From: Micromonospora endophytica
Lineage (GTDB): Bacteria > Actinomycetota > Actinomycetes > Mycobacteriales > Micromonosporaceae
Length of the DNA stretch: 37,762 nucleotides
NCBI RefSeq assembly: GCF_003236305.1
Contig: NZ_POTX01000032.1
Span: forward strand, 1-37,762
Reading direction: 5' to 3'
Shown here: one piece after another, positions 3,717-18,804 of the stretch
Position numbering within the stretch: the stretch's first letter is position 1
Layout: every line of letters starts with the position of its first letter
Made by a program: the position numbers and the translations under genes
Notes under the pieces: generated by a model
Told to the model about the DNA's origin: nothing
Seen by the model: only the letters and a program-made list of their open reading frames with translations
The model's database searches: none

Positions 3717-4793
3717 TTGTTGGACATCGAGAAACGCCTCACGCTTGACGAACGTTCGGCAGTGGATTTCGTCCTCGGCCTGCGCAAGCGCTGGGCCGAC
3801 ACGGTCTATCCGGCCCTGACCCGCGAGTACGCCGCCACCGGCGGACAGGCCGAGGACATCGACGAGGCCGGCCGGGCACTGCGCGAGCTGCCGCTCTACC
3901 CATGGTTCAGCCACCTGGAGCGGGTACAGCAGAAGATGCTCTGGAAGACGGCCGGTGACGCGGTGCTCAGCCGCCGGGACGAGTTGGCCGAGCAACTCGC
4001 GGCGATCCCCGCGCAGCCGTTGGGCTCCCTGCAACTCGACCCCGACCTGGCCCTGCCGGACTGGTACACCGACTACGACATCCACATCCAGCCGGGCGGC
4101 TTCTTCTCCGACGACATGTCCGCCTACGTCTACGAGTTCGGCGCGCGCATCGTGATGCTGCGCGACAACGACGGCTACAAGTTCCACAAGCTGTTCACCG
4201 AAACCGCCCTGCCGGACCTGCCGGCGGCGACCCGGGTGGTCGACGTCGGCTGCGGGTTCGGCAAGAGCACCCGGCCACTGGCCCTGCGGTACCCGACCGC
4301 CGAGGTGATCGGCATCGACCTGGCCGCGCCTGGCCTGCGTCTCGCCCACGCCGAGGCGGAGGCTGCCGGGCTGGCCATCGACTACCGACAGGGCGACGGG
4401 CGGGCCACCGGTCTGCCGGCCGGCAGCTGCGACGTGGTCACCGGAACCATGGTGCTGCACGAGATGCCGACCGAGGCCATCCGGGAGACCCTCGCCGAGG
4501 CCGCCCGGCTGCTCAAGCCCGGTGGCGCGCTGCGGTTCCTGGAGTTTCAGCTCACCGGGGACCCGCTGCGCGACGCGACCGTCTACGAGCACGCCGAGCG
4601 CAACAACGAGCCGTTCTTCCACGCCCTGTTCGGCTCCGACCTGCTGGCGGTCTGCACCGAACTGGGGCTGACCGACGCCACCTGGACGCCGTTCGACGAA
4701 CGCCGCAACGGCCTGCAGCCGGAGGGCTGGGGCGACCGTTCCGAGTGGCACTTCCCCTGGGCGGTTCTGTCGGCGACGAAGCCGGAGGCGTGA
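3717..4793 (+). CDS. Class I SAM-dependent methyltransferase
   Basis: A 358-aa protein with a Rossmann methyltransferase domain from about residue 165. Motif I is VVDVGCGFGKS (174-184), with acidic D201 placed to bind the SAM ribose, then a TGTMVLHEM post-motif and LLKPGGALRF. The first 160 residues are an extra helical domain with no family I recognise and may hold substrate. The start is TTG at 3717 or TTG at 3720, both behind AAGGAG (3706-3711); no ATG or GTG fits as well. It follows the flavoenzyme by 88 bp and overlaps the next gene by one base (TGATG). The acceptor cannot be told; with a demethylase-like neighbour it might handle a methyl or C1 product, but that is inference. Confidence 0.8.
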   Translation: MLDIEKRLTLDERSAVDFVLGLRKRWADTVYPALTREYAATGGQAEDIDEAGRALRELPLYPWFSHLERVQQKMLWKTAGDAVLSRRDELAEQLAAIPAQPLGSLQLDPDLALPDWYTDYDIHIQPGGFFSDDMSAYVYEFGARIVMLRDNDGYKFHKLFTETALPDLPAATRVVDVGCGFGKSTRPLALRYPTAEVIGIDLAAPGLRLAHAEAEAAGLAIDYRQGDGRATGLPAGSCDVVTGTMVLHEMPTEAIRETLAEAARLLKPGGALRFLEFQLTGDPLRDATVYEHAERNNEPFFHALFGSDLLAVCTELGLTDATWTPFDERRNGLQPEGWGDRSEWHFPWAVLSATKPEA

Positions 4794-5104
4794 TGAGCAG
4801 CGAGTTCGACTACTTCGGCGATCCTCGATTCGGCAAACTGTTCGACCTGGTCCTCCAACTCTCCACCGAGCTGCACGTGAGCCGGCAGCGGCTGCGGGTG
4901 CTGGAGGCGTTGCTGGTCCGCCGCGAGGTGCTCGGCGCGGGCGACGTGGACGGCTTCGACCCGCAAGCTGACGAGCAGCAGGTGCTCGACGGCGAACGGG
5001 ACGCGCTGCTGGCTCGGCTGATGCGGATCCTCACCGAGGACGGTCCCGCCGAGCACCCGCTGCGCAGCCAGTGGGAAGCGGCACTGAGCGGCAAGAGCGG
5101 CTGA
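4793..5104 (+). CDS. Hypothetical 103-aa protein, translationally coupled
   Basis: I do not recognise this protein. It is short, acidic and mostly helical, with a strongly amphipathic central stretch (residues 20-45, rich in Leu and Arg) and no signal peptide or membrane segment. The segment ALLVRREVLGAGDVDGF loosely recalls the helix-turn of nitrile hydratase accessory subunits, but this is too weak to name it. ATG 4793 overlaps the methyltransferase stop as ATGA, and its own stop overlaps the next start in the same way. Such tight coupling on both sides suggests the three products are made in fixed ratio and may form a complex. Confidence 0.7.
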   Translation: MSSEFDYFGDPRFGKLFDLVLQLSTELHVSRQRLRVLEALLVRREVLGAGDVDGFDPQADEQQVLDGERDALLARLMRILTEDGPAEHPLRSQWEAALSGKSG

Positions 5105-5484
5105 TGAACCTGACGCAACCGGCCAGCCTGGTGGATCACTACCTGCAGCTGTGCGAGGACCGGCAGCTCGACCAGGCCGGCCGGCTGCTCGCTCCGGGGG
5201 CCCGGCTGGTGTTTCCCGGCGGGCGCTGCTTCGGCTCGCTCGATGAGATGGTCGCGGCGTCGACCGGAACCTACCGGTGGGTGCGCAAGCACCGCGACCG
5301 GTACCTGGTCGCCCCCGACGGCGACGACATTGCGGTCACCTCGCTCGGCCGCCTGTACGGGCAGTGGCCGGACGGCACCGAGTTCGACGGGATCCGGTAC
5401 GCCGACGTGTTCCTGCTCCGCGACGGGCTGATCGTCGAACAGCACGTTTTCAACGACCTGGCGATGGCGGTCGCGCAGCGGTGA
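5104..5484 (+). CDS. NTF2-like / SnoaL-type small protein
   Basis: A 126-aa protein with the pattern of an NTF2-like fold: an N-terminal helix (VDHYLQLCEDRQLDQAGRLL), a strand pair around LVFPGG, a middle helix, and long C-terminal strands with RYADVFLLRDGLIVEQHVF, close to the usual SnoaL ending. Members act as dehydratases, isomerases or cyclases, or simply bind small ligands. It has no export signal. ATG 5104 overlaps the preceding stop (ATGA). As the third member of the coupled trio it may bind or dehydrate a pathway intermediate; the reaction cannot be read from sequence. Confidence 0.75.
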   Translation: MNLTQPASLVDHYLQLCEDRQLDQAGRLLAPGARLVFPGGRCFGSLDEMVAASTGTYRWVRKHRDRYLVAPDGDDIAVTSLGRLYGQWPDGTEFDGIRYADVFLLRDGLIVEQHVFNDLAMAVAQR

Positions 5485-5532: not shown

Positions 5533-5553
5533 CCGGCCGACTCCGTGGGCCGG
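5533..5553. other. Small GC hairpin in the 108-bp gap before the ABC transporter genes
   Basis: CCGGCC (5533-5538) pairs with GGCCGG (5548-5553) across a 9-base loop. It sits between the trio and the transporter genes and could trim or modulate the transcript. No T-run follows, so it is not a classical terminator. Confidence 0.35.
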
Positions 5554-5592
5554 ACATTCCTATCCCTGACATTCGTTGACGAGGTGTTCGAG

Positions 5593-6705
5593 ATGAAGAA
5601 GAAGTGGGGTTTGCTGCCGGCGGCGCTTGTCGCCGCGGTGGTGCTCGCCGGTTGTGGGGGATCCGGCAGCGACGAGTCGAGCGGTGCGGAGGGCGCGCCG
5701 GCGGAGCTGACCTTCGCCATCGCCTCCGCCGTGATCGGCCCGAAGGAAGAGGTCGCCATGTTCGCGGTGGCCAAGGAGCTGGGGTACTTCGCCGAAGAGA
5801 AGCTGACCGTCGAGACGATCAACACCGACGGCTCGGTGGCCGCGCTGCAGGCGGTCGCGAGCGGCAGTGCCGACGTGACCGCCGCCGACAGCGGATCCAT
5901 TCTCGGCGCGGTGGAGAAGAACGTGCCGGTCAAGGCGATCGGCGGGCTGGTGCAGAACTGGCCGTGGGTGATGGCGGTCAAGCCGGACAGCACCCTCACC
6001 GGCGGTGCCGACCTGCGGGGCAAGAAGATCGGCGTGATCAGCCTGGCGTCCGGCTCGGCACCGTACGCGCGGGCCTACGTGGCGGCGGCCGGGCTCGACC
6101 CGGCCAAGGATGTGGAACTGCTGCCGGTCGGGGTCGGCGCGCAGGCCGCCGCCGCGCTCAACGACGGTCAGGTCGATGTGCTGGCGCTCTACACCCAGGC
6201 GTACGCGGTGATCGAGAACTCCGGTACGACGCTGAAGTACCTGGACAACCCGGACGCGTTCGACGGGATTCGGTCACTGAGCTTCGCCGTCGGCGCCCGC
6301 GATCTCGACGACAAGAAGGACGTCCACACCCGCTTCCTGCGGGCGGCGTACAAGGCGATGTTGTTCTCCGCGAACAACCCGGAGGCGGCCATGCGGATCG
6401 GCTACCAGGTCTTCCCGCAGATCCTCGCCGGCAAGTCGGCCGACGAGCAGCTGGCCAACGATGTGCGCAGCCTCCAGGCGTGGCTGAAGACGGCCACTCC
6501 CGCCTCAGGTGAGCCCAAGGACTTCGCCGACTGGGGTGCCATCACCGAAGCGGAATGGACCAAGACCCAGGCGTACACGAAGGAGGCCGGGCAGATCACC
6601 GGCGACGTGGCGCTGGCCGACGTGTGGGAGCCGGGGCTGCTGGCCGGGGCCAACGACTTCGACAAGGCCGCGGTGCTCGACAAGGCAGCGAACTACACCA
6701 AGTAG
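5593..6705 (+). CDS. ABC transporter substrate-binding lipoprotein, NMT1/SsuA type
   Basis: A 370-aa solute-binding protein of the class that captures nitrate, sulfonates, thiamine pyrimidine precursors and related small molecules. The signal ends in the lipobox LAGC with C21 as the lipidated residue, followed by a Gly/Ser-rich tether. The mature domain shows the NMT1/SsuA order: an AKELGYFAEEKLTVE region, a VASGSADVTAAD motif in the first lobe, and DLRGKKIGVI opening the second. ATG 5593 follows GAGGTG (5581-5586). The ATPase and permease follow directly, so this is a full importer and probably brings in the substrate of the pathway. The ligand cannot be told from sequence; a small polar or aromatic heterocycle would fit the family. 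Confidence 0.9.
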   Translation: MKKKWGLLPAALVAAVVLAGCGGSGSDESSGAEGAPAELTFAIASAVIGPKEEVAMFAVAKELGYFAEEKLTVETINTDGSVAALQAVASGSADVTAADSGSILGAVEKNVPVKAIGGLVQNWPWVMAVKPDSTLTGGADLRGKKIGVISLASGSAPYARAYVAAAGLDPAKDVELLPVGVGAQAAAALNDGQVDVLALYTQAYAVIENSGTTLKYLDNPDAFDGIRSLSFAVGARDLDDKKDVHTRFLRAAYKAMLFSANNPEAAMRIGYQVFPQILAGKSADEQLANDVRSLQAWLKTATPASGEPKDFADWGAITEAEWTKTQAYTKEAGQITGDVALADVWEPGLLAGANDFDKAAVLDKAANYTK

Positions 6706-6731
6706 CGGCAGCGGACGCGGAAGGGATGAGG

Positions 6732-7556
6732 ATGGCCATCAAGGCGATGGGTCGCCGGATGCAGCAGCCGGCAGCGGTGTCGGAGGACTCCTGGATCGAG
6801 GTCGTCGGTCTGGACAAGCGGTACCAGCCGCGCAGATCGGCCCCGACCCAGGCACTCAGTGATATCAACCTGACAGTACGACGTGGGGAGTTCGTCTCCG
6901 TCGTCGGACCGTCGGGATGCGGCAAGACCACCCTGCTGAAGATCCTCGCCGGCCTCAGCCCGAAGACCGACGGTGCCGTACGCATCGCCGGCCGAGAGGT
7001 GACCAAACCCCTTCCCGAGGTCGGGATGGTGTTCCAGGCCCCCACGCTGCTGCCCTGGCGCACCATCTTCGACAACATCATGGTGCCGGCGGAGATCCAG
7101 AAACTGGACCGCGACAAGCACCGCGAACGCGCCCAGCAACTGCTGGAACTTGTCGGCCTGACCGGCTTCGAGCGGAAGTACCCGCACGAGCTGTCCGGCG
7201 GGATGCAGCAGCGGGCCGGCATCTGCCGGGCCCTGGTGCACGACCCGGCGGTGCTGCTGATGGACGAGCCGTTCGGCGCGCTGGACGCGATGACCCGCGA
7301 GTACATGAACGTCGAGCTGCTGCGGATCTGGCGGGAGAGCGGCCAGACCGTGGTGCTGGTGACCCACTCCATCCCGGAGGCGGTGTTCCTCTCCGACCGG
7401 GTGGTGGTGCTCAGCCCACGTCCCGGCCGCATCGCCGAGATAGTCCCGATCGAGCTGGAACGCCCGCGCGAGCTGAGCGTGATGTCCTCCGACCGGGCCG
7501 GGGTCTACGTGGACCGGATCCGCAGCCACTTCAACGCCGCCGGCGTTATCGACTGA
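6732..7556 (+). CDS. ABC transporter ATPase, SsuB/TauB type
   Basis: A 274-aa nucleotide-binding subunit that powers the importer at the inner face of the membrane. It has Walker A GPSGCGKTT (59-67), the Q-loop at FQAPTLLPWRT, the LSGGMQQR signature (154-161), Walker B and D-loop MDEPFGALD (177-185) and the switch His of VTHS (212). Everything needed for ATP hydrolysis is there. ATG 6732 lies 6 bases after GGAAGGG; ATG 6726 is in frame but overlaps that site. It sits between the binding protein and permease genes with short gaps. Confidence 0.93.
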   Translation: MAIKAMGRRMQQPAAVSEDSWIEVVGLDKRYQPRRSAPTQALSDINLTVRRGEFVSVVGPSGCGKTTLLKILAGLSPKTDGAVRIAGREVTKPLPEVGMVFQAPTLLPWRTIFDNIMVPAEIQKLDRDKHRERAQQLLELVGLTGFERKYPHELSGGMQQRAGICRALVHDPAVLLMDEPFGALDAMTREYMNVELLRIWRESGQTVVLVTHSIPEAVFLSDRVVVLSPRPGRIAEIVPIELERPRELSVMSSDRAGVYVDRIRSHFNAAGVID

Positions 7557-7568
7557 CAAGGGGACGCC

Positions 7569-8420
7569 ATGGCAACAACCGATGTGGTCGACAAGCCCCC
7601 GCGTACCGACGCGTCGCCGCCGGGTGGCACCCGGCGGCGGCTGGACCTGCGGGAACGACCCCAGCTCTGGCTGGTACCGACGGTGTTCGTGGTGGTCGTG
7701 CTGGCCTGGGAGTACGGCACCCAGCTGCTCGAAGTCGACGCCTACGTGCTGCCCCGACCCTCGCAGATCGTCGAGGCGTTGCAGCGGCAGCTCGGCGACC
7801 CCCAGTTCTGGAGTCACCTCTGGGTGACCTCCCAGGAGGCACTGCTCGGCTTCGTCATCGGCGTCGGCGCGGCAGTCCTGCTCGGCACCTTCATCTCCCA
7901 GATCAAGGTGGTCGAGGCGACGCTGATGCCGTACATCGTGGCCTTCCAGACCGTGCCCAAGGTCGCCCTGGCCCCGCTGTTCGTGCTCTGGTTCGGCTTC
8001 GGCCTGACCAGCAAGGTGGTGATGGCCGCGGTCATCTCGTTCTTCCCGATGCTGGTGAACGTCATCGAGGGGCTCCGGGCCGCCGACGCCGACCGGATCC
8101 AGATGCTCACCGTCTTCGGCGCCAGCAAGACGCAGATCTTCCGGATGGTCCGGCTGCCCAGCGCCCTGCCGTTCATCTTCGCCGGGCTGGACATCGGCAT
8201 CGTCTTCGCCATTCTCGGCGCGGTCGTCGGCGAGTTCATCGGCGCCAAGGAGGGCTTGGGCTACCTGCTGCTGCAGACCAACTACAACTTCGACATCGCC
8301 GGCATGTTCGCCGTGCTGGTGGTGCTGTCGGTGATGGGCCTGCTCGCCCACTTCGTGATCCGGCTGCTGCAACGTCGCCTCGCCTTCTGGGCCGAGGAGA
8401 CGAAGGTGATCGGCGCATGA
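7569..8420 (+). CDS. ABC transporter permease, SsuC/TauC type
   Basis: A 283-aa membrane subunit with about six hydrophobic segments. The first is at residues 37-54; the rest lie in the BPD-transport domain. The cytoplasmic EAA loop that docks to the ATPase is visible as EGLRAADADRIQMLTVFGASK followed by a PSALP turn. The start ATG 7569 follows AAGGGG. The stop overlaps the SDR start as ATGA, tying transport to metabolism in one transcript. Confidence 0.92.
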   Translation: MATTDVVDKPPRTDASPPGGTRRRLDLRERPQLWLVPTVFVVVVLAWEYGTQLLEVDAYVLPRPSQIVEALQRQLGDPQFWSHLWVTSQEALLGFVIGVGAAVLLGTFISQIKVVEATLMPYIVAFQTVPKVALAPLFVLWFGFGLTSKVVMAAVISFFPMLVNVIEGLRAADADRIQMLTVFGASKTQIFRMVRLPSALPFIFAGLDIGIVFAILGAVVGEFIGAKEGLGYLLLQTNYNFDIAGMFAVLVVLSVMGLLAHFVIRLLQRRLAFWAEETKVIGA

Positions 8421-9190
8421 ACCCCGCTCACCCCGAGGACCCGAACCGCTTCGACGGACGTGTGGCGCTGGTGACCGGCGCGGCCCGGGGAATCGGTGCC
8501 CGGATCGCCGCCACCCTCGCCGAGCGGGGCGCCACAGTCGCCGGCGCCGACATCGCGGCGGACTGGGCGGACGACCCAGCGGCAACGGCGGAAGCAGCGG
8601 GGGCGGTGCACACCCGGCACCGGGTCGACGTGCGCTCCGCTGGCTCGTGCCGGGACCTGGTGGCCGAGGTGCTCGACCGGCATGGCCGACTGGACCTGCT
8701 GGTCAACAACGCCGGCGTCGTACGGCGGGGACCTGCCGCCACGATGTCCGAGGACGACTTCAACACGGTCCTGGACGTCAACCTGACAGGCACCTTCCGG
8801 ATGTGCCAGGCCGCCTACCCGGCGCTGCGCGACGCCCGGGGCGCCGTGGTCAACCTCGGCTCCACGAACGGACACATCGCCGTGCTCGACACGGTCGGCT
8901 ACTGCGTCAGCAAGGCCGGGGTGCTGCACCTGACCCGGGTGCTGGCCCTGGAATGGGCCGCCGACCAGGTCCGGGTCAACGCGGTGGGCCCGACCATCGT
9001 GCCCACTGACATGACCACCGACGTACGCGGCGACGCGGCCTATCTCGCCGACAAGCTGGCCACCATCCCGCTCGGGCGGATGGCCCAACCCGCCGACGTC
9101 GCCAACGCGGTCGCCTACCTGCTCAGCGACGCCGCCGCCATGGTCACCGGCCAGACGATCTTCGTCGACGGCGGCGTGACCATCCACTGA
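8417..9190 (+). CDS. SDR-family NAD(P)-dependent oxidoreductase
   Basis: A 257-aa classical short-chain dehydrogenase/reductase. It shows the cofactor motif TGAARGIG (20-27), D46 after the second strand (favouring NAD over NADP), NNAG (97-100), catalytic S149, Y162 and K166 of YCVSK, and the C-terminal GQTIFVDGG end typical of FabG-like enzymes. It would oxidise an alcohol or reduce a ketone in the pathway. ATG 8417 overlaps the permease stop. The frame is open far upstream, but that stretch only shadows the ABC genes. Confidence 0.9.
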   Translation: MNPAHPEDPNRFDGRVALVTGAARGIGARIAATLAERGATVAGADIAADWADDPAATAEAAGAVHTRHRVDVRSAGSCRDLVAEVLDRHGRLDLLVNNAGVVRRGPAATMSEDDFNTVLDVNLTGTFRMCQAAYPALRDARGAVVNLGSTNGHIAVLDTVGYCVSKAGVLHLTRVLALEWAADQVRVNAVGPTIVPTDMTTDVRGDAAYLADKLATIPLGRMAQPADVANAVAYLLSDAAAMVTGQTIFVDGGVTIH

Positions 9191-9221: not shown

Positions 9222-10586
9222 ATGACTCACCCCGACACCGCTGCCGCACTCGCCGCGGTCGACACCCACTTCGACGAGTTCGTGGCGGAACTGCAGGAGC
9301 TGTGCCGCATCCGCAGCCGCCGACCCGAACCCGAGGAGATGGTCCGCACCGCCGAGTTCATCGCCGCCTCGGTACGCCGCTGGGGCGGGCAGGCCGACAT
9401 CATCGACTGGGAGCACTCCTACCCGTACGTGCTGGCCGAGGCGCCCGGGGCCTCCGACCGGTCGCTGCTGCACTTCACCCACTACGACGTGGAGGTGGAG
9501 CCGGCCGGTGACGACGCCGACTGGATCAGCCCGCCGTACGCGGCCGAGATCCACGACGGTCGGCTGTACGCCCGGGGAGTGGCCGACGACAAGGGCGCCC
9601 TGATGTCCCGCATCCACGCGGTCGCCGCCTGGCGGCTGGCCGGGCTGGCCCCGCCGGTCACCAGCCGGTTCATCTTCGAGGGCAAGAAGTGGCTGCACAG
9701 CCCCGGGCTGGGCTCCTTCGTCACTGCCCACGCGGATCGGCTGACCAGCGACGGCACGCTCTGGGAGAACTCCTGGGTGGACGCGCACGACCGGTTGCTG
9801 CTCAAGCTCGCCGAGAAGGGCGTGCTCTACCTGCGACTCACCGCGCGTACCCTGCCCCGGGATCTGACCAGCCAGAACACCGCGCTGCTGCCGGCTGCGA
9901 CCGCCCGGCTCGCGGCGGCCCTCACCCGCCTGCAGGACCCTGACGGCACCGTCACCGTCCCCGGCTTCACCGATGGCGTACGCCCGCTGACCGACACCGA
10001 ACGTGACCTGCTGGCCCAGGTGGACTTCGACGGTGACTTCCTTCGTCGCCGGGCCGGGGTCGACGCGTTCACCGGTGGCCTGGACGACCGGCAGGCGGCC
10101 GAGGCGATCCGCACCGTACCGACCCTGACCGTCACCGGCTTCACCGGCGGCGACATGCGCGACGACGTCACCCTCGGCATCCCGTCGACCGCCTCGGCCA
10201 AGCTGGAGATCCGGCTGGTGCCCGGTCAGGACCCTGACCGGGTGCTCACCGCGATCCGTGCGCACCTGGCCGCCACCGGCTTCGGCGACCTCGACATCGA
10301 GGTGATGGCGACCAGCCGGCCGAACGTCACCGACCACCGGGACCCGTTCGTCGCGCTCGTCGCCGACGCGGCCCGTCGGGTCTACGGCACCGAGCCGGTG
10401 ATCGAGCCGTACACCCAGTGGATCGGCAACCAGGGCGTGCTCGCCGGCCGCCCGATCGTCGGCGTCGGGGTGTCCCGGGCCGACTCCGGGGTGGACGGCC
10501 CCAACGAGAACATCCGTCTCGACGACTACCGGGCGGGAATCAAACACGTGGTGGAGGTCATGGCGGCGATGGCGGTGCAGGCATGA
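9222..10586 (+). CDS. M20-family peptidase-like protein lacking key catalytic residues
   Basis: A 454-aa protein that aligns by motif over the whole length with M20 di-peptidases. The N-terminal metal motifs are near normal: THYDV (H87, D89) and DDKG (D122, D123). But the segment that reads EGEEE or EGMEE in active enzymes is EGKKW here (153-157), so the general-base Glu and the metal-ligand Glu fall on K156 and W157. The dimer-domain DLHSG is DLTSQ (H to T216), and the final HxPNE is DGPNE (H to D425). The codons are ordinary, with no frameshift. It is either a non-peptidase enzyme with an altered metal site or a binding or scaffold protein. ATG 9222 follows GGGAGG. It overlaps the next gene by ATGA. 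Confidence 0.8.
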   Translation: MTHPDTAAALAAVDTHFDEFVAELQELCRIRSRRPEPEEMVRTAEFIAASVRRWGGQADIIDWEHSYPYVLAEAPGASDRSLLHFTHYDVEVEPAGDDADWISPPYAAEIHDGRLYARGVADDKGALMSRIHAVAAWRLAGLAPPVTSRFIFEGKKWLHSPGLGSFVTAHADRLTSDGTLWENSWVDAHDRLLLKLAEKGVLYLRLTARTLPRDLTSQNTALLPAATARLAAALTRLQDPDGTVTVPGFTDGVRPLTDTERDLLAQVDFDGDFLRRRAGVDAFTGGLDDRQAAEAIRTVPTLTVTGFTGGDMRDDVTLGIPSTASAKLEIRLVPGQDPDRVLTAIRAHLAATGFGDLDIEVMATSRPNVTDHRDPFVALVADAARRVYGTEPVIEPYTQWIGNQGVLAGRPIVGVGVSRADSGVDGPNENIRLDDYRAGIKHVVEVMAAMAVQA

Positions 10587-11407
10587 CCCGGGTACGCGGA
10601 ATCAGCCGGCGCGGCTACGTCGACGTGCCGTGGGGCCAGGTGCACTACCGGACGGCCGGCGACGACAGCGCGCCGGTGCTGTTGATCGTCCACCAGTCCC
10701 CGCTGTCGTCGGCCACCTACGACATCGCACTGGCGCCGCTTGCCATCCGAGGACTGCGGGTGGTGGCCGTGGACACGCCCGGGTTCGGGATGTCCGATCC
10801 GCCGCCGCGCCCCTGGTCGATCCCGGAGTACGCGGCCGGGCTGTGGCAGACCGCCGACGCCCTCGGTCTGGACCGGGTGCATCTGCTGGGGCAGCACACC
10901 GGCGCGGTGGTCGCCGCCGAGGCGACCCTGCGTGACCCGGGCCGGGTGCACCGACTCCTCCTACAGGGTCTGCCGCTCTACGACGCGGCGGAACGGCAGG
11001 AGAAGAAGACCTCGTACGCCCCCGGCTACCGCCCCGACCGCGACGGCAGCCACCTGCGAGTGATCTGGGACCGGGTGTACGGCCTCTACCCCCGGCTCAC
11101 CCCGCCGGAAGCCGACCGGCAGGTCGCCGAGTATCTGCTGACCGGCCCGGACTACGCCACCGCCTACCGGGCGGTCTTCGCGCACGAACTCGACACTGCT
11201 GCCCTCAACGCGACGGGCGTGCCGCTGGTCCTGCTGCACGGCGACGAGGACCTGGTGCACCGGTTCACGCCGGTGGTGCGGGCGGCGCTACCGCAGGCAC
11301 CGCTCGTCACCATTCCCGGCGGTACCGACTTCGTGTCCGACGAGCAGCCGGAGGCGTTCGCCGACGCGGTGGCCGCCCAGGTCCACGGCACGGAGGTGAC
11401 CCGGTGA
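10583..11407 (+). CDS. Alpha/beta-hydrolase-fold protein without the usual Ser and His
   Basis: A 274-aa protein with the hydrolase fold: a first strand and oxyanion region VLLIVHQSP, then DTPGFGMSD, then the nucleophile elbow. The elbow reads GQHTG (103-107), so the normal Ser is H105. The acid region HGDED (221-223) is kept, but the position normally occupied by the catalytic His, just before the last helix, is T248 (PGGTDFVSDEQPEAF). Two of the three triad residues are therefore changed. I recall scattered hydrolase-fold proteins with a similar GxHTG elbow, which would suggest a real subfamily rather than decay, but cannot confirm it here. ATG 10583 overlaps the M20-like stop, so the two unusual proteins are co-translated and may work together. 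Confidence 0.8.
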   Translation: MTRVRGISRRGYVDVPWGQVHYRTAGDDSAPVLLIVHQSPLSSATYDIALAPLAIRGLRVVAVDTPGFGMSDPPPRPWSIPEYAAGLWQTADALGLDRVHLLGQHTGAVVAAEATLRDPGRVHRLLLQGLPLYDAAERQEKKTSYAPGYRPDRDGSHLRVIWDRVYGLYPRLTPPEADRQVAEYLLTGPDYATAYRAVFAHELDTAALNATGVPLVLLHGDEDLVHRFTPVVRAALPQAPLVTIPGGTDFVSDEQPEAFADAVAAQVHGTEVTR

Positions 11408-11847
11408 CCGGCATCGTCGTCCCGGCCGAGGTGCAGTACACCGCGACGGTGCGGGTCAGTGGTGGGCGCGGCGGCGCAGCCGAGTCACTCACCGGCACGC
11501 TGCGGGTCGACCTGACCCGACCCGCGCAGCGCGGCCCCGACGCGCCGGGCACCGACCCGGAGGAGCTCTTCGCCGCCGGCTACGCCGCCTGTTTCGACAG
11601 CGCCCTCGCCGTGGCCGCCCGGCAGGAAGGGGTCCGGACCGGTCCGACGAGCGTGACCGCGTCGGTGTCGCTGGGCCCCACCGACGACGGCCGGTACGCC
11701 ATCGCCGTGGCGCTGGCGGTCGCCGCACCCGACTGCCCCCAGACCGACCTGGACCGGGCCGTCGCGGCGGCGGACCGGCTCTGCCCGTATTCGAACGCCC
11801 TGCGGGGCAATACCGCAGTGACGATCCGGGCCGATGGACGACCGTGA
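11404..11847 (+). CDS. Ohr/OsmC-family organic hydroperoxide reductase
   Basis: A 147-aa protein of the OsmC/Ohr fold. The two redox cysteines are in their usual settings: C63 in GYAACF and C127 in LCPYSNALRGN, the Ohr-type pair that reduces organic hydroperoxides using lipoyl or thiol donors. GTG 11404 overlaps the preceding stop (GTGA). Its place inside a catabolic run suggests that the pathway, perhaps via its flavoenzyme, makes peroxides, or that this protein handles a pathway thiol ester or reactive intermediate; both are inference. Confidence 0.85.
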   Translation: MTGIVVPAEVQYTATVRVSGGRGGAAESLTGTLRVDLTRPAQRGPDAPGTDPEELFAAGYAACFDSALAVAARQEGVRTGPTSVTASVSLGPTDDGRYAIAVALAVAAPDCPQTDLDRAVAAADRLCPYSNALRGNTAVTIRADGRP

Positions 11848-12826
11848 CCCGCGTGGTACCGCCCTGGTGCCGCCGCCGTCGGCGTCGCCCGGGGGCACCA
11901 CGCCCACCACACCTGTCGCCCTGGCGGTCGGCTTGGCACTGCTCTACCTGGTGTGGGGTTCCACCTACCTCGGCAACCGGATCGCGTTGGAGAGCCTGCC
12001 GCCATTCGTGTCCACCTCGACCCGGTTCCTCGCCGCGGCGGCGGTGCTGTTCGCGGTGGTGGCGGTGCGGCGGGGCGGCGCCGGTCTGCGACTGCCCCGC
12101 GCCGAGTGGACAGCAGTGGCGGTGACCGGAACGCTGATGGTGGGTACCGGCAGCGCCCTGCTCGCCGTCGGCCAGCAGTACGTGCCGTCCGGACTGGCAT
12201 CGTTGCTGGTCGCCGCGATGCCGGTGTGGGTGCTGGTGATCCGGCTCGGCACCGGGCAGCGTCCGGCGTCACTGGCGGTCGCCGGGGTGCTCGGTGGGCT
12301 GGCCGGATTGGCGCTGTTGCTGGCCGCACCGACCGAGCGTTGGCACCTGGTCGGGATGCTGACCATCGTGGCCTCCACTGTGGTGTGGGCACTCGGGTCG
12401 GCACTGGCCCAACGACTGCCGATGCCGGCCGACCACCTGGTCGGCACCGGCTGGCAGATGCTCGTCGGTGGGGTCGGGGTGGCGCTCGCCGGCCTGGTCG
12501 TCGGCGACTGGGGCGAGCTGCGGCTGGCCGCGGTCACCGGCCGGTCCTGGCTGGCCTGGGCCTACCTGATGTTGGTCTGCACCGTCGTCGGGTTCAGCGT
12601 CTACACCTGGTTGCTGCGCCGCGCGCCGCTGCAGCTCGTCGCCACGTACGCGTACGTCAACCCGGTGTTGGCGGTGCTGCTCGGCATGGCGGTGCTGGGC
12701 GAGCGGCTCACCGGCCAGCAGGTGCTCGCCGGTGGCGTGGTGCTCGCCGCCGTGGCGCTGGTGGTCGCCCGGGAACGGCCGAGACGATGGGCGGGATTGC
12801 CGCCGGGTACGCCCACGCCACCGTGA
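11834..12826 (+). CDS. EamA/DMT-superfamily transporter
   Basis: A 330-aa integral membrane protein with about ten hydrophobic segments arranged as two EamA repeats. The first opens with LLYLVWGSTYLGNRIAL and includes a QYVPSGLASLLVAAMPVW motif; the second ends with ATYAYVNPVLAVLLGMAVLGE, both typical of the RhaT/YdcZ-like exporter group. About 30 Pro/Thr-rich residues precede the first helix. The ATG overlaps the Ohr gene by 14 bases. With an ABC importer already in the run, it probably exports an end product or toxic intermediate; direction and cargo are inferred. Confidence 0.88.
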   Translation: MDDRDPRGTALVPPPSASPGGTTPTTPVALAVGLALLYLVWGSTYLGNRIALESLPPFVSTSTRFLAAAAVLFAVVAVRRGGAGLRLPRAEWTAVAVTGTLMVGTGSALLAVGQQYVPSGLASLLVAAMPVWVLVIRLGTGQRPASLAVAGVLGGLAGLALLLAAPTERWHLVGMLTIVASTVVWALGSALAQRLPMPADHLVGTGWQMLVGGVGVALAGLVVGDWGELRLAAVTGRSWLAWAYLMLVCTVVGFSVYTWLLRRAPLQLVATYAYVNPVLAVLLGMAVLGERLTGQQVLAGGVVLAAVALVVARERPRRWAGLPPGTPTPP

Positions 12827-12876
12827 GCGCCGGCTGACTCCGCACACCGGGCACGTCGACAGTGAGGACACAGAGG

Positions 12877-13698
12877 ATGACCACCACGACCTTCGTCGAG
12901 CGGGACGACAGCCGGGTTCGCTCCGGCCTCGGCCGGGCCCTCGACGTCATAAACACCATCGCCCAACGGGCACCGGAGACGCTTGGCGTGTCGGCGATCG
13001 CGCGGGAACTGGGCCTGCCCAAGGCGGTGGCGTACCGGATCGTGAAGGAGTTGGTGGCGGACGACTTCCTCAGCTTCAACGAGGACACCAAGCAGTACCG
13101 GCTCGGTGCCGGGGCGCTCGCGGTGGGACTGGCCGCGCTGCGCACGCTGGATGTGCCGGACACCGCCCGCCGTTACCTGGTCCGGCTGGTGCGCGACAGC
13201 GGTGAGACGGCGACGCTGTCGGTGCGGCAGGGCTGGCTGCGGGTCTACATCGATCAGGTGCTCTCGCCGCACGAGGTGCGGATGTCGGTGTCGCTGGGCA
13301 CCAGCCACCCACTGCACTCGGGTTCGTCGTCCAAGGCGATCCTGGCCGCCCTGCCCGACATCGAGGTGGCGGAGTACCTCGCCCAACCGATGCGGCAGGT
13401 GACCCCGTTCACCATCACCGACGCGAGTGCCCTCCGCGCCGACCTGGACCGCATCCGGCGGCAGGGCTACGCGGTGAGCATCGGGGAGCGGCAGAACGGG
13501 GCGGGCAGCGTCGCTGCGGCGGTGCGCTACGGCACCGGGCAGGTCTTCGGCTCGATCTCGCTCTGCGGGCCGCAGGACCGGTTCACCCCGCAGGTCTGCG
13601 CGGCGCACGGTGCCCTGGTCACGGCGGCGGCAGCGGAGATCTCCGCCGAACTCGGCTACCGGATCCCGGGCGTACGCCCGCCCGCCGACCCGGACTAG
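12877..13698 (+). CDS. IclR-family transcriptional regulator
   Basis: A 273-aa regulator. Residues 17-80 form the IclR winged helix-turn-helix (GRALDVINTIAQ, VSAIARELGLPKAVAYRIVKEL); the C-terminal effector domain follows, with the SLGTSHPLHSGSSSKAILA core and the final GSISLCGP strand. Effectors of this family are usually small organic acids or aromatics. ATG 12877 is 50 bases after the transporter stop. It is the only regulator in the 18-gene run and the likely reader of the palindrome at 1537-1556. A hairpin follows the gene, so downstream genes may be expressed at a different level. Confidence 0.9.
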   Translation: MTTTTFVERDDSRVRSGLGRALDVINTIAQRAPETLGVSAIARELGLPKAVAYRIVKELVADDFLSFNEDTKQYRLGAGALAVGLAALRTLDVPDTARRYLVRLVRDSGETATLSVRQGWLRVYIDQVLSPHEVRMSVSLGTSHPLHSGSSSKAILAALPDIEVAEYLAQPMRQVTPFTITDASALRADLDRIRRQGYAVSIGERQNGAGSVAAAVRYGTGQVFGSISLCGPQDRFTPQVCAAHGALVTAAAAEISAELGYRIPGVRPPADPD

Positions 13699-13738
13699 CG
13701 CGAGCGTTCCCGGCAACGGAAACCGACGACATGACGAC

Positions 13739-13768
13739 GCCGGGCGGGGCACCCCGTACCCGCCCGGC
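13739..13768. terminator. Hairpin between the IclR and CoA-transferase genes
   Basis: Positions 13739-13748 pair perfectly with 13759-13768 (10 bp, all G-C) across a 10-base loop. No T-run follows, as is common for actinobacterial hairpin terminators. It could end or attenuate the transcript and split the run into two units. Confidence 0.45.
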
Positions 13769-13804
13769 CGACAAGCAACTCGGGGACATGGGGAGGTGGA
13801 TCTG

Positions 13805-15004
13805 GTGAGCGACGGACCACTCGCGGGCGTGCGGGTACTGGATGTCTCGACGATCCTGGCCGGGCCGCTGTGCTGCCAGATTCTCGGTGACTTCGGTGCC
13901 GACGTGATCAAGATCGAGCACCCGACCGCTGGTGACAGCATGCGTGGGCACGGTAAGTCCAAGGACGGGCATCCGCTGTGGTGGAAGGAGATCTCCCGCA
14001 ACAAGCGCACACTCGGGTTGAGCTTGTCCGCTCCGGAGGGTGCGGCGCTGCTGCTGCGCCTGGCCGAACAGGCCGACGTGCTGGTGGAGAACTTCCGGCC
14101 GGGCACGCTGGAACGCTGGGGAGTGGGGCCGGAACAGCTACACCGGGCCAACCCCGGGCTGGTCATCGCCCGGATCACCGGCTTCGGTCAGACCGGCCCG
14201 TACGCCGGCCGGGCCGGCTTCGGCACCCTGGCCGAGGCGATGAGCGGCTTCGCCCACCTCACCGGTGCCGAAGACGGCCCGCCCACCCTGCCGGCGTTCG
14301 GCCTGGCCGACAGCATCTGCGGCATCGCCGCCTCGTCGGCGGTGCTGATGGCGCTCTGGCACCGGGACCGCTCCGGCGGTGCCGGCCAGGTCATCGACCT
14401 CAGCCTGCTGGAGCCGATCATGGCGGCGGTCGGTCCCGGTCCCACCGTCTACGACCAGCTCGGCATCGTCGAACACCGGCACGGCAACCGGTCGACGAAC
14501 AACGCGCCGCGCAACACGTATCGCACCAGTGACGGTGCCTGGGTGGCGGTGTCCACAAGCGCCCAGGCGATCGCCGAGCGGGTGCTGCGGCTGGTCGGGC
14601 ATCCGAAGGTGATCGACGAGCCGTGGTTCCGTACCGGCGCCGGCCGGGCCGCGCACGCCGACGAACTCGACGCCTACGTCGGTGCCTGGATCGGCGCGCG
14701 TACCCGCGACGAGGTGAGCCGCGCGTTCACCGAGGCGGGGGCGGCCGTCGCCCCGGTCTACGACGCCCGGGACATCGTCTCCGACCCGCACGTGCGCCAG
14801 ACCGGGATGATCACCGAGGTCGACGATCCGGATCTCGGTCCGCTGCGGATGCACAACGTCATGTGGCGGATGTCGGCCACTCCCGGCCGGATCCGGTTCA
14901 CCGGGCGTGCCGCCGGCGCCGACACCGACTCCCTGTTGATCGACGAACTCGGCTGTGACCCGGCCGAGGTCGCCGATCTCCGAGCCCGCGACATCGTCTC
15001 CTGA
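13805..15004 (+). CDS. CaiB/BaiF-family (class III) CoA-transferase
   Basis: A 399-aa CoA-transferase of the formyl-CoA:oxalate / succinyl-CoA:acid type. The family opening VRVLDVSTILAGPLCCQILGDFGADVIKIE is intact, as is VENFRPG. The catalytic aspartate, which forms the acyl anhydride, is D169 in FGLADSICG, the same number as in the well-studied formyl-CoA transferase. GTG 13805 has GGGAGG 8 bases before it. It would activate a carboxylic acid intermediate as its CoA ester, fitting the CitE-like lyase five genes on. The acid cannot be named from sequence. Confidence 0.92.
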   Translation: MSDGPLAGVRVLDVSTILAGPLCCQILGDFGADVIKIEHPTAGDSMRGHGKSKDGHPLWWKEISRNKRTLGLSLSAPEGAALLLRLAEQADVLVENFRPGTLERWGVGPEQLHRANPGLVIARITGFGQTGPYAGRAGFGTLAEAMSGFAHLTGAEDGPPTLPAFGLADSICGIAASSAVLMALWHRDRSGGAGQVIDLSLLEPIMAAVGPGPTVYDQLGIVEHRHGNRSTNNAPRNTYRTSDGAWVAVSTSAQAIAERVLRLVGHPKVIDEPWFRTGAGRAAHADELDAYVGAWIGARTRDEVSRAFTEAGAAVAPVYDARDIVSDPHVRQTGMITEVDDPDLGPLRMHNVMWRMSATPGRIRFTGRAAGADTDSLLIDELGCDPAEVADLRARDIVS

Positions 15005-15034: not shown

Positions 15035-15871
15035 GTGACCATCACCGCAAGGCCCGCCGATCCTCTGCTCGACGCCGTACGCGGCGGCGCGCAGATCTAC
15101 GATCTCGGCCGGCTACTCACCATCGGGATGCCCCAGTCGCCGAACCATCCACCGTTCTGGCTGAGCATGCCCCGCCGTCACGGCGACATGGTCCGCGCCG
15201 ATGGCGGCTCCGCCGCGAACGACCTGCTGGTCATGGGCACCCACGTCGGCACCCATGTGGATGCCCTCGCGCACGTGTCGCACGAGGGCCGGTTGCACGG
15301 TGGGGCCGACGCGGCGCAGGCGCAGGCCGGGGGCCGGTTCACCGAACTCGGCGTGCACACGGTCGAGCCGATGCTGCGCCGTGGCGTGCTGCTCGACATC
15401 CCGGCGGTGCTCGGCGAACCCTGCCCGGCCGGCTACGAGATCACCCCGGCCGACCTGGAGGCCGCGGTCGATCGCCAGCGCACGCCCGTGGAGCCCGGCG
15501 ACGTGGTGCTGATCCGCAGCGGCTGGGGCCGCCACTTCGACCACGAGGACCGCCGGGTCTACGTCGGGCACGACACCGGGGTACCCGGCATCAGCAGCGA
15601 CGGCGCGCAATGGCTGGCACAGCGGCGGGTGCATGCCGCCGGTGCCGACACCATCGCCTTCGAGTGCCTGCGCCCGGGGCAGGGGCACGCGAGCCTGCCC
15701 GCGCACCGCATCCTCCTCGTCGAGCAGGGCATCTACCTGATCGAGGCGATGGCATTGGAGGAGATCGCCCGCGACGAGGTGTACGAGTTCACCTTCATCA
15801 TGATCCCGCTGCCGTTGTTCGGCGCGACCGGATCGCCGGTGCGTCCGCTGGCGGTGGTGAGCCGTGGCTGA
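15035..15871 (+). CDS. Cyclase-family metal hydrolase (kynurenine formamidase / isatin hydrolase-like)
   Basis: A 278-aa protein with the signature HxGTHxDxxxH at residues 70-80 (H70, H74, D76, H80), which binds Mn or Zn in bacterial kynurenine formamidase and isatin hydrolase. The family opens amides, lactams or lactones. The C-terminal region has a conserved-looking PAHRILLVEQGIYLIEAM stretch, as in other members. GTG 15035 lies behind GAGG. It overlaps the MmgE/PrpD gene by 8 bases. A ring-opening or N-acyl hydrolysis step is the sensible role, upstream of CoA activation. Confidence 0.85.
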   Translation: MTITARPADPLLDAVRGGAQIYDLGRLLTIGMPQSPNHPPFWLSMPRRHGDMVRADGGSAANDLLVMGTHVGTHVDALAHVSHEGRLHGGADAAQAQAGGRFTELGVHTVEPMLRRGVLLDIPAVLGEPCPAGYEITPADLEAAVDRQRTPVEPGDVVLIRSGWGRHFDHEDRRVYVGHDTGVPGISSDGAQWLAQRRVHAAGADTIAFECLRPGQGHASLPAHRILLVEQGIYLIEAMALEEIARDEVYEFTFIMIPLPLFGATGSPVRPLAVVSRG

Positions 15872-17324
15872 GCAGACCCTCGGGCAGCGCCTGGCGGCCT
15901 TCGCCGTCGACACCTCCGCCGCTGACCTGCCCGCCGAGGTGGTCGGCAGCGTACGCCAGCGGGTGCTGGACGTGCTCGGGCTCTGCGTGGCCGCGTACCC
16001 GCTGCCCACCAGCCAGGCAGTGCTGGCCTACGTCCGCGAGCAGGGTGGTCGGGGTCAGGCGCAGGCGATCGGCCTGGAAACCCCGGTGCCGGCCGCGCTC
16101 GCCGCGTTCGCCAACGGCGTGCTGGCGCACTCGCTCGACTACGACGACACCCACCTGCCGTCGGTGCTGCACCCCAGCGCCTCGGTGGTGCCGGCCGCGT
16201 TGGCCGCGGCCGAGGCCAGCGGAGCCAGCGGCCGGGAGACCGTCGCCGCCATCGCGGTCGGCATCGAGGTCTGTGTCCGGCTCGGCATGGCCGGCTACGA
16301 CCGTGCTGCCGGAAACTCGGTCTTCTTCGAGCACGGCCAGCACGCCACCTCGATCTGCGGCACCCTCGGCGGTGCGGTCGCCGCCGCCCGCCTGTTCGGT
16401 CTGGACGCCGGACAGACACTGGACAGCCTCGGCGTCGCGGCGTCGATGGCCGCCGGCCTGATTGAGGCGAACCGTACCGGCGGCACGGTGAAGCGGATCC
16501 ACTGCGGTTGGGCGGCACACTCCGCGGTGACCGCCGCCTCGCTGGCCCGGCACGGCATCACCGGTCCACCGACGGTGTTGGAGGGGCGGTTCGGCTTCTT
16601 CCAGGCGTTCCTGCGCGGCGAGTTCGACCCGGCGGAAGTCGTCGACGGGCTCGGCACGAACTGGGCGGTGCCAGACATCTTCTTCAAGCCGTACCCGGCC
16701 AACCACTTCACCCACGCGGCGATCGACGCGGCCATCGCGCTGCGGGAACGGGGGCTGCGCGTCGAGGAGATCGACACGATCACGCTCGGCGTACCAACTC
16801 CGGTGATCCGCACCATCGGCGCGCCACTGGAACGCAAGCAGGCGCCCCGCACCGGCTACGAGGCACAGTTCAGCGGCCCGTACGCGGTGGTCGCCGGCCT
16901 CTACGGCGGCGGTGTGCTCGGCGTCGGCCCGGACGACTTCACCGACGCCCTCGCCGTCGATCCGGACCGGCGGTCGTTGATGGCACGGGTGCAGGTGGTG
17001 CCCGACGACAGGTGCGACGCAATCTTTCCCTACCAGTTCCCGGCGGTGCTGCGGGTGCGCACCCGGGACGGCCAGGTCTGGACCGAGGAGGTGCTGGCCA
17101 ACCGGGGTGGCCCGCAGCGTCCACTCTCCGCCGACGAACTGGCCCGCAAGTTCCACCACAACGTCGCCGGGCGGCTTGCGGCCGACGTCGCCAACCAGGT
17201 CGAACAGGAGATCGACCGGTTGGACCAGGCCGCCGACGTGACTCGGCTGACCGGCCTGCTGGCCGCCGTGGCCACCGCACCCACCCCAACCGGCACGCCA
17301 ACGGCTGGCCCCTTCGAGGAGTGA
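15864..17324 (+). CDS. MmgE/PrpD-family protein
   Basis: A 486-aa protein of the family that holds 2-methylcitrate dehydratase, cis-aconitate decarboxylase and iminodisuccinate epimerase. The all-helical first half carries LDYDDTH (91-97) and GIEVCVRLG; the second half has the KPYPANHFTHAAIDAAI motif and the alpha/beta lid domain. Length and motif order are normal. GTG 15864 overlaps the cyclase-type gene by 8 bases. It would dehydrate, epimerise or decarboxylate a di- or tricarboxylate-like intermediate; the family is too broad to say which. Confidence 0.88.
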   Translation: MAEQTLGQRLAAFAVDTSAADLPAEVVGSVRQRVLDVLGLCVAAYPLPTSQAVLAYVREQGGRGQAQAIGLETPVPAALAAFANGVLAHSLDYDDTHLPSVLHPSASVVPAALAAAEASGASGRETVAAIAVGIEVCVRLGMAGYDRAAGNSVFFEHGQHATSICGTLGGAVAAARLFGLDAGQTLDSLGVAASMAAGLIEANRTGGTVKRIHCGWAAHSAVTAASLARHGITGPPTVLEGRFGFFQAFLRGEFDPAEVVDGLGTNWAVPDIFFKPYPANHFTHAAIDAAIALRERGLRVEEIDTITLGVPTPVIRTIGAPLERKQAPRTGYEAQFSGPYAVVAGLYGGGVLGVGPDDFTDALAVDPDRRSLMARVQVVPDDRCDAIFPYQFPAVLRVRTRDGQVWTEEVLANRGGPQRPLSADELARKFHHNVAGRLAADVANQVEQEIDRLDQAADVTRLTGLLAAVATAPTPTGTPTAGPFEE

Positions 17325-17328: not shown

Positions 17329-18804
17329 ATGAGTTCCTTCGACCTGTTGCTGCGTAACGTCCGGGTGGTCCGGCACGACCGGCCAGATCCTGAGGCGGCC
17401 GACATCGCCGTCGCCGACGGACGGATCGTCCGGGTCGCGCCCGGCATCGATCCCGAGCAGGCGACGACAGTCGTCGACGGTGGTGGGCGACTGGCCTTTC
17501 CCGGTGTGGTCGATGCCCACCAACACTGGGGGATCTACAACCCGCTGAGCGAGGACACCGCCTCCGAGAGTCGCGCCTGCGCGCAGGGCGGCGTCACCAC
17601 GGCGCTTACCTACATGCGGACCGGGCAGTACTACCTCAACCGGGGTGGCCGCTATGAGGACTTCTTCCCCGACGTGTTGGCTGCCAGCGCCGGCCGATCC
17701 TACGTGGACTACGGCTTTCACCTCGCACCTATGATGAGCGAGCACATCGACGAGATTCCCGACCTGGTGGAGAAGTTCGGCGTCACCTCGTTCAAAATCT
17801 TCATGTTCTACGGCAGCCACGGTCTGCACGGCCGGTCCGCCGATCAGAACTCGTTCCTGATGATCCCCGAGGGGGAGCGGTACGACTACGCCCACTTCGA
17901 GTTCGTGATGCGCGGAGTGCAGGCGGCCCGGGAACGCTTCCCCGAGCTCGCCTCGGAGATCTCGCTCTCCCTGCACTGCGAGACCGCCGAGATCATGAGC
18001 GCCTACACCCGGCGGGTGGAGCAGGAGGGCACGCTGCGCGGACTGGAGGCGTACCACGCCTCCCGGCCGCCGCACTCCGAAGGGCTCGCCGTCTCGATCG
18101 CCTCCTACCTGGCCCACGAGACCGGCCTGCCCACCATCAACCTGCTTCACCTGTCGTCGGCCAAGGCGCTCGACGCGGCACTGCGGATGGCGCAGGCGTT
18201 CCCGCACATCGACTTCCGTCGCGAGGTGACAATCGGGCACCTGCTGGCCGACATCACCACCGCCCACGGTCTCGGCGGCAAGGTGAACCCGCCGCTGCGT
18301 CCCCGCGAGGACGTCGAGGCACTGTGGGGCCACCTGCTCGACGGCCGGGTCGACTGGGTGGTCAGTGACCACGCCTGCTGCCGCGACGAGCTGAAGTTCG
18401 GCGATCCCCGCGACGACGTCTTCCTCGCCAAGTCCGGCTTCGGCGGCGCGGAATATCTGCTGCCCGGCCTCTTCACCGAGGGCCGCCGCCGGGGCCTGCC
18501 GCTGTCCGCCGTCGCCGCGCTCACCGCCTGGAACCCGGCCCGCCGGTTCGGCCTTGCCACCAAGGGCGCCATCGCCGAGGGGTACGACGCCGACCTGTGC
18601 CTGGTGGACCCCGACACGACCTGGACGGTGCGGGCGGAGGACTCCGAGTCGACCCAGGAGTACACGCCGTTCGAGGGCTTCGAGTTGACCGCGCGGGTCA
18701 CCGACACCTTCGTCCGCGGCGCACACGTTTTCGTCGACGGCAAGGTGACAGGTGCACCGCAGGGCCGGTACGTGCCCCGGGCCGGCGGTAGGCACGCGCG
18801 GTGA
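17329..18804 (+). CDS. Hydantoinase/dihydroorotase-type amidohydrolase
   Basis: A 491-aa TIM-barrel amidohydrolase with a complete two-metal site: HxH at H64/H66 (VDAHQHW), the carbamylated-lysine candidate K156 (TSFKIFMF), H216 (SLHCETAE), H274 (LLHLSS) and D347 (VSDHACC). Relatives open cyclic amides: dihydropyrimidines, hydantoins, dihydroorotate, allantoin. The C-terminal composite beta domain (DADLCLVDPD) is present. ATG 17329 has GAGGAG 7 bases before it. Together with the cyclase-type hydrolase it is the best clue that the substrate contains a cyclic amide or imide, though the exact ring is unknown. Confidence 0.9.
   Translation: MSSFDLLLRNVRVVRHDRPDPEAADIAVADGRIVRVAPGIDPEQATTVVDGGGRLAFPGVVDAHQHWGIYNPLSEDTASESRACAQGGVTTALTYMRTGQYYLNRGGRYEDFFPDVLAASAGRSYVDYGFHLAPMMSEHIDEIPDLVEKFGVTSFKIFMFYGSHGLHGRSADQNSFLMIPEGERYDYAHFEFVMRGVQAARERFPELASEISLSLHCETAEIMSAYTRRVEQEGTLRGLEAYHASRPPHSEGLAVSIASYLAHETGLPTINLLHLSSAKALDAALRMAQAFPHIDFRREVTIGHLLADITTAHGLGGKVNPPLRPREDVEALWGHLLDGRVDWVVSDHACCRDELKFGDPRDDVFLAKSGFGGAEYLLPGLFTEGRRRGLPLSAVAALTAWNPARRFGLATKGAIAEGYDADLCLVDPDTTWTVRAEDSESTQEYTPFEGFELTARVTDTFVRGAHVFVDGKVTGAPQGRYVPRAGGRHAR

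Follow-up and report, generated by a model that had tools for sequence, protein, structure and literature searches.

The locus

The DNA analyzed here, which we call the window, is a stretch of 37,762 nucleotides from Micromonospora endophytica (contig NZ_POTX01000032.1). Its forward strand carries the genes listed in Table 1, and among them is an open reading frame of 454 amino acids that starts with ATG, runs through an undamaged frame, and has a Shine-Dalgarno-like GGGAGG ahead of it at positions 9211-9216. The product of this open reading frame, which we refer to as the M20-like protein, is the subject of this work.

A scan of bacterial and archaeal genomes that required exact 8-residue patterns from the window returned 20 loci (Micromonospora 7, Phytohabitans 1, Pseudonocardia 4, Streptomyces 7, Nocardioides 1), and these are for that reason not a census. 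When gene order is compared by tblastn, it is the same in all 20, and in every one of them the M20-like gene sits between the SDR dehydrogenase and the alpha/beta hydrolase. The counts of 19/20 for the CoA-transferase, cyclase, PrpD, and amidohydrolase genes arise because the stretch for locus L020 ends before them. Three junctions overlap, with ATGA at 8417 and 10583, and GTGA at 11404. Several genes separate the amidohydrolase from the M20-like gene in most loci. The amidohydrolase of L025, the cyclase of L019, and the 119-aa protein of L011 are omitted from the residue readings; the genes are present by tblastn.

Table 1. Genes of the operon and motifs of the M20-like protein, in window coordinates.
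Feature	Coordinates	Strand	Remarks
OYE/FadH-type flavin oxidoreductase, 699 aa	1529..3628	+	20/20 loci
SAM methyltransferase	3717..4793	+	20/20 loci; tracks the M20-like gene
119-aa protein	4745..5104	+	no Pfam match; 20/20 loci
SnoaL-like protein	5071..5484	+	19/20 loci, absent from L016
NMT1/THI5-like ABC substrate-binding protein	5545..6705	+	20/20 loci
ABC transporter ATPase	6555..7556	+	true start possibly downstream: ABC domain from residue ~82-101
ABC transporter permease	7569..8420	+	
SDR dehydrogenase	8417..9190	+	20/20 loci; ATGA overlap with permease stop
M20-fold protein	9222..10586	+	454 aa; substituted at the general base, the site-1 metal ligands, and the dimer-domain His
HYDVEVEP, codons 87-94	9480..9503	+	site-2 His87 and Asp89 kept; then two-residue insertion region with Glu91/Glu93
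DDKG, codons 122-125	9585..9596	+	bridging Asp122 kept
EGKKWLH, codons 153-159	9678..9698	+	base Glu to K156, site-1 Glu to W157; invariant K155
WENSW, codon 182	9765..9767	+	site-2 acid E182 kept
LTSQN, codon 216	9867..9869	+	DLHS to DLTS; dimer-domain His to T216
DGPNE, codon 425	10494..10496	+	HAPNE to DGPNE; site-1 His to D425
alpha/beta-hydrolase-fold protein	10583..11407	+	20/20 loci; GQHTG; ATGA overlap with M20-like stop
OsmC/Ohr-like protein	11404..11847	+	18/20 loci, absent from L010 and L011
EamA transporter	11834..12826	+	7/20 loci
IclR-family regulator, BhcR/AllR-like	12862..13698	+	20/20 loci
CoA-transferase family III	13610..15004	+	domain from residue ~70; 19/20 loci
'cyclase'-family protein, HxGTHxD motif	15035..15871	+	19/20 loci
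MmgE/PrpD protein	15864..17324	+	nearest solved structures: cis-aconitate decarboxylase, IDS-epimerase; 19/20 loci
allantoinase/hydantoinase-like cyclic amidohydrolase	17329..18804	+	HxH, Lys, His, His, Asp kept; 19/20 loci
HpcH/HpaI-CitE-type lyase, RipC-like	18801..19649	+	12/20 loci; most other stretches end nearby

Going by the families of its genes, the operon looks catabolic. The amidohydrolase keeps its metal-ligand set and should thus be active, and the CoA-transferase is nearest to succinyl-CoA-dependent ones. We infer the pathway from family names rather than identify it, because the NCBIfam scores are below the equivalog cut-offs. An isonicotinate-type pathway was considered for the operon and dropped, as nothing relevant to it is among the literature matches listed. 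Those matches include no description of the conserved actinobacterial operon either.

Two of the neighboring genes have features of their own. The OYE/FadH-type reductase is nearest to the mycofactocin-associated OYE_2 model, at a score below the cut-off (563 vs. 793 bits). In the alpha/beta hydrolase, both of the window and of 20/20 loci, a His occupies the nucleophile position (G-Q-H-T-G), and an Asp stands at the expected triad His by a weak alignment to 5mxp. Nine distant homologues of this hydrolase have at the nucleophile position either His (4: L080, L081, L082, L088) or Ser (5). The His is thus a trait of a wider subgroup, and not unique to this operon.

An M20 fold with a changed active site

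The M20-like protein matches Pfam Peptidase_M20 (PF01546) with 72.1 bits against a cut-off of 24.6, and M20_dimer (PF07687) with 34.1 bits against a cut-off of 21, so that both the catalytic and the dimerization domains place it above the curated cut-offs for the M20 homology family. No extra domain is seen in the protein. The best sequence match is Sso-CP2 (4mmo), full-length, with 194.8 bits and an E-value of 2e-56, and the carnosinases are also related. The top annotated NCBIfam subfamily is PRK06446 (NF005034), with 251 bits against a curated cut-off of 369, and the PRK08201 dipeptidase scores 184 bits against 441; being below both curated cut-offs, the protein is not a member of either subfamily.

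The first-pass annotation, made from the letters of the DNA, had suggested a structure prediction. An AlphaFold2 model built from 21 clade sequences (pLDDT 85.5, pTM 0.87) has a predicted two-domain M20 fold, and the closest known fold is again Sso-CP2 (4mmo_A), with a TM-score of 0.81 by query length, a Z-score of 38.5, and an rmsd of 3.2 over 414 aligned residues. The weakest parts of the model, with pLDDT <50 at 93-102, 218-222, and 418-427, are within the changed motifs or next to them.

The first Glu of the EE pair of M20 enzymes is the general base. We mapped the residues of the active site by alignment to Sso-CP2, to the carnosinases, and to M20 homologues outside the clade, and the EGEEE/EGMEE motif of Sso-CP2 and the carnosinases becomes E153 G154 K155 K156 W157. 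In place of the base there is K156, a position that is K, Q, or R in the 21 clade rows and E in 29/29 outsiders. At metal site 1, W157 and D425 stand where a Glu and a C-terminal His are expected, with a relocated ligand possible. The dimer-domain His is T216 in 21/21 clade rows. The residues that make up site 2 and the bridge (H87, E182, and D122) are all present in 21/21 clade rows, and R331 and D89 are kept as well. We take the Arg equivalent to R331 to be the one that binds the substrate carboxylate in M20 enzymes. As far as the alignments tell, this protein, an M20 homologue in family and fold alike, lacks three of the features tested for a functional M20 hydrolase, and one metal site is without both its own ligands while the other is intact.

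The letters given in the first-pass annotation were all correct when aligned to 4mmo and the carnosinases: EGEEE to EGKKW, DLHSG to DLTSQ, and HxPNE to DGPNE. Its statement that HYD (H87, D89) and DDKG (D122) persist also stands, to which we add E182, which it did not mention. So does its statement that the general base, one metal ligand, and two His are changed (K156, W157, T216, and D425) with no damage to the frame.

Some of these residues have assigned roles in related enzymes. In a paper on the CN-1 carnosinase, H478 and E200 bind zinc 1, H132 and D228 bind zinc 2, D165 bridges the two, and zinc 1 is described as often weakly bound in homologues (PMC4723063). For the dimer-domain His206 of Acy1, an alanine mutant is reported to be almost inactive (PMC4012986).

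Sso-CP2 (4mmo) and the carnosinases CN1 and CN2 (3dlj, 2zof) resemble the clade in their two-domain layout and in having equivalents of H87, D122, and R331, and an acid at 182. They differ from it at four positions, where they keep two Glu (the base and the site-1 ligand), the His of the dimer domain, and the C-terminal His; the clade reads K/Q/R, W/M/R, T, and D there. The clade also has an insertion of two residues behind HYD, and its loop at 397-404 is not the same.

Could the missing residues have moved elsewhere in the protein? Such a displacement would have contradicted the first-pass annotation. Among all acidic pairs of the protein, there is no relocated Glu pair: the sole other EE (38-39) is EE in just 2/21 clade rows, and the conserved DD at 122-123 is the DDKG motif itself. 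The alignments likewise show no His at either of the positions that lost one. There are, on the other hand, new residues. The two positions that the clade has after HYD, in comparison with the 29 outsiders, bring in E91 and E93, both invariant in 21 rows, and invariant His appear in the clade at 84, 132, and 159, where the outsiders lack them. Given these three new His, a relocated metal ligand is possible.

A clade that shares the changes

The clade rows comprise the window protein and its 20 homologues (n=21), which are 69-94% identical to it. K155, T216, and D425 are an invariant signature of the 21 rows, while position 156 is K in 8, Q in 12, and R in 1, and position 157 is W in 17, M in 3, and R in 1. 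The first-pass annotation had proposed to check whether a clade shares KKW: the first Lys is shared, and the two positions that follow it vary. The same signature is found in 9 further copies, and also in L075 and L089. The most diverged copy is L075 (67% identity), which reads EGKRRLDSPG, and in which H159 is replaced by Asp and Q399 by Thr; Arg at 157 is found in L021 and L075. In none of the 31 clade homologues read (20, plus 9, plus L075 and L089, with some genomes possibly of the same species) do the canonical residues appear; homologues that kept them would have counted against the first-pass reading.

Conservation within the clade concentrates around the active site. In windows of five residues around the canonical positions, 48/69 positions are invariant, compared to 133/385 elsewhere. 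Adding one loop (centre 399) gives 55/77 compared to 126/377, but that loop, one of seven windows, was picked after its conservation had been seen, and the 48/69 test omits it. Around the lost positions alone, the excess is weaker (20/34 vs. 161/420). We also find 21 positions that are conserved both in the clade and in the outsiders with a different residue in each; 8 of them are in the active-site windows, with 3.6 expected. The residues that are invariant in the clade and absent from 29/29 outsiders include H84, E91, E93, K155, H159, N183, Q218, N219, T398, Q399, W400, N403, Q404, and D425. Position 91 is a gap in 29/29 outsiders, and the clade-invariant W185 and R213 are each present in one outsider.

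The clade is under purifying selection. For the window gene compared to its 20 homologues (20 pairs), dN/dS is 0.12-0.40, with dS probably underestimated at this G+C content.

The best 29 outsiders among the matches listed from 396 genomes of the phylum, with at most 37% identity, all have EGEEE and both His, such that the four changed positions read E, E, H, H in 29/29 outsiders, and carry the four substitutions in 21/21 clade rows. These counts leave out L002 (a partial alignment), L005 (a paralogue in the same genome), and L006 (the window itself). The genome of the window has 10 other M20-profile matches, one of which is L005, with a canonical EGEEE.

We observe no intermediates between the clade and the canonical proteins among the matches listed from the 396 phylum genomes (residues from 29). 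There are none either among the matches listed from 394 class or 300 family genomes (E <= 1e-70), from 298 order genomes searched with a clade profile (E <= 1e-60), or from 111 genomes of the genus of G023 (E <= 1e-60), and weaker intermediates would escape these thresholds. The sole non-clade match in the 298 order genomes by the clade profile is L072, with a canonical DGEEE. The searches of viral contigs and phages gave no relative, and 8 plasmid records match with 29.7-38.2% identity. Relatives with intermediate residues may exist; coverage beyond the Actinomycetota consists of the pattern scan, viral contigs, plasmids, and phages.

In a tree of 51 rows, a branch with support 100 separates the 21 clade rows from the others, and the stem is 3.86 changes per column, long compared with the short branches inside the clade. 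The tree was made by a quick method that gave long-branch warnings, omits L002 and L006, and leaves the sister group of the clade unsure. The clade is monophyletic, with a long stem, and the substitutions are old and common to all of it.

Distribution and variant clusters

The gene is patchy. It is found in 15/300 family genomes (E <= 1e-70), in 1/394 class genomes (E <= 1e-70), which is the window's own, and in 1/111 genomes of the genus of G023 (E <= 1e-60), the match being a clade member. All 15 family genomes are counted here, with the residues of G852, G1036, G974, and G787 left out of the readings; G863 is the genome of L075. L068-L070 repeat genomes already covered as L067, L066, and L063.

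The 15 family genomes with the M20-like gene are the same 15 that have the methyltransferase at >=71% identity. Three more family genomes have a methyltransferase at 50-65% identity, without an M20-like match (E <= 1e-70). L075, one of the 15, has a compact cluster in which the OYE, the methyltransferase, the 119-aa protein, the M20-like protein, and the amidohydrolase adjoin, with the M20-like gene directly next to the amidohydrolase. In the 19.9 kb of L075, the transporter, SDR, SnoaL, and alpha/beta hydrolase are all without a match. L076, one of the three, has in 19.9 kb the methyltransferase, the 119-aa protein, PrpD, and the cyclase, together with an FAD monooxygenase, an aldehyde dehydrogenase, and an Amdase-family protein; there, tblastn reports no match to the M20-like gene or to the amidohydrolase or OYE of the window, and the locus does carry a different Amidohydro_1 protein. 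The other two of the three, L077 and L078, were read in less detail. In these few genomes, it is the amidohydrolase and the reductase that the M20-like protein seems to accompany, and not the transporter.

The counterpart of the methyltransferase (3717-4793, forward strand) in the other cluster is at L076:9703-10836. The 119-aa protein (4745-5104, forward strand) follows the methyltransferase in 20/20 loci, in L075, and in the different cluster of L076, and is possibly its partner. This distribution suggests that the methyltransferase, the 119-aa protein, PrpD, and the cyclase are a shared core of two catabolic clusters. The amidohydrolase of L075 (L075:7645-9090) has SDY beside the metal-binding Asp, where the other retrieved copies have SDH.

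What could the protein do?

Our best explanation, to which we give roughly even odds (about 0.5), is that the clade is a neofunctionalized M20-fold protein, probably with one metal, that acts in the pathway of the operon, and that is neither a peptidase nor the product of a decaying gene. The residues lost would make it a non-peptidase, which favors the specialised non-peptidase proposed in the first-pass annotation. The residues fixed across five genera in the active-site motifs are K155, E91/E93, H84, T216-S-Q-N219, N183-S-W185, the 397-404 loop, and D425. A pocket fixed across the clade would not be expected of a merely broken enzyme, and would be expected of a protein that uses it for another ligand or another reaction.

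As we picture it, one divalent metal in site 2 together with R331 would hold a carboxylate-bearing intermediate of the pathway. The chemistry would not be the Glu-activated attack of water on an amide; it could instead be a step assisted by the metal, a Lys, or an acid, or else a hydrolysis that uses a different base. The substrate may be the product of the hydantoinase-like amidohydrolase of the operon, or a nearby intermediate, so that the slot next to a cyclic amidohydrolase, which an M20 amidohydrolase can take elsewhere, would be taken here by a re-tooled M20 protein. Because positions 156 (K/Q/R) and 157 (W/M/R) vary, they are not themselves the new catalytic residues, and the changes of H159 to Asp and Q399 to Thr in L075 imply that not every new residue is essential. 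A more specific version, which we put forward only tentatively, is an enzyme with one metal that no longer hydrolyzes anything (a lyase, an isomerase, or another kind) and works through Lys155, Glu91/Glu93, and the site-2 metal. Its pathway would be an actinobacterial one so far undescribed, for a nitrogen-containing compound that the NMT1-type transporter brings in.

The comparison with known systems gives partial precedents for such a re-tooled protein. Mono-zinc DapE proteins keep all ligands and the base. By the titles of the structures (3isz, 4o23), they are a case of an M20 fold crystallized with one metal; the clade differs from them in that one site's own ligands appear to be gone. The 5-nitroanthranilate aminohydrolase (5k8m-p) has an M20-like fold, and the reaction in the title is not peptide or N-acyl hydrolysis, which makes it a precedent for other chemistry, at only 16-18% identity to the M20-like protein. 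Cyclic amidohydrolases and M20 proteins form pairs, such as hydantoinase with N-carbamoylase and allantoinase with allantoate amidohydrolase, and in these pairs, as in YgeY/YgeZ, the M20 partner is taken to be a canonical hydrolase. A published account has ygeY (M20) adjoining ygeZ, a phenyl-hydantoinase (PMC2276186). Our operon is like YgeY/YgeZ in having an M20 gene and a cyclic amidohydrolase in one cluster, and unlike those pairs in that its M20 partner is without the canonical residues. The literature matches listed, which include few subscription papers and do not extend to MEROPS, contain neither a pseudoenzyme of the M20 family nor a non-hydrolytic clade like this one, and in the main text of a 2024 review of inactive metallopeptidase homologues, the whole word M20 is absent (PMC11266112).

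High conservation of the pocket also fits a protein that binds a ligand without catalysis. A pseudoenzyme would bind the substrate of the pathway or a partner, most plausibly the amidohydrolase, as an allosteric subunit, a chaperone, or a sensor. The missing base and metal site, the variability of positions 156-157, and the co-occurrence with the rest of the operon are all compatible with such a role, and the same review mentions pseudo-active sites used for binding in other metallopeptidase families (PMC11266112). A pure scaffold, however, would need neither the site-2 ligands and R331, which are there in 21/21 rows, nor the new invariant polar residues in the same motifs, and no extra domain is seen. 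We regard the pseudoenzyme as a doubtful alternative, if one to be taken seriously.

Unlikely in our judgment is a rebuilt dinuclear hydrolase, in which H159 (Asp in L075) would replace the Glu at 157, D425 would replace the His, and either E91/E93 or a metal-bound hydroxide would be the base, giving an amidohydrolase for an unusual substrate. H159 is invariant in 21 rows and its replacement in L075 is a ligand-capable Asp, D425 could bind a metal, E91/E93 come directly after the His-ligand motif and do not vary in the 21 rows, and it is ordinary for an M20 protein to be found next to a hydantoinase-like enzyme (PMC2276186). Against such a site stand the K, Q, or R at residue 156 and, in L021 and L075, the Arg at 157, which would put a positive charge beside a metal.

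Finally, a decaying or recently damaged peptidase gene, for which nothing speaks other than the absence of several textbook catalytic residues, is an explanation we give practically no credence, in agreement with the first-pass annotation: the frame is intact, every clade member read has the same substitutions, the low dN/dS and the conserved synteny of the operon are strongly against it, and 69-94% identity argues against one very recent transfer behind all copies.

Outlook

Annotation treats M20 enzymes as peptidases or amidohydrolases, and the clade would be filed likewise despite its missing residues. It amounts to a clean natural experiment, in which the base and the ligands of one site appear to be gone, the other site is fixed, and the replacements are the same across genera. 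The role of the clade would show whether the M20 fold is able to support other chemistry or acts as a partner in binding; it would also help decode the conserved actinobacterial operon.
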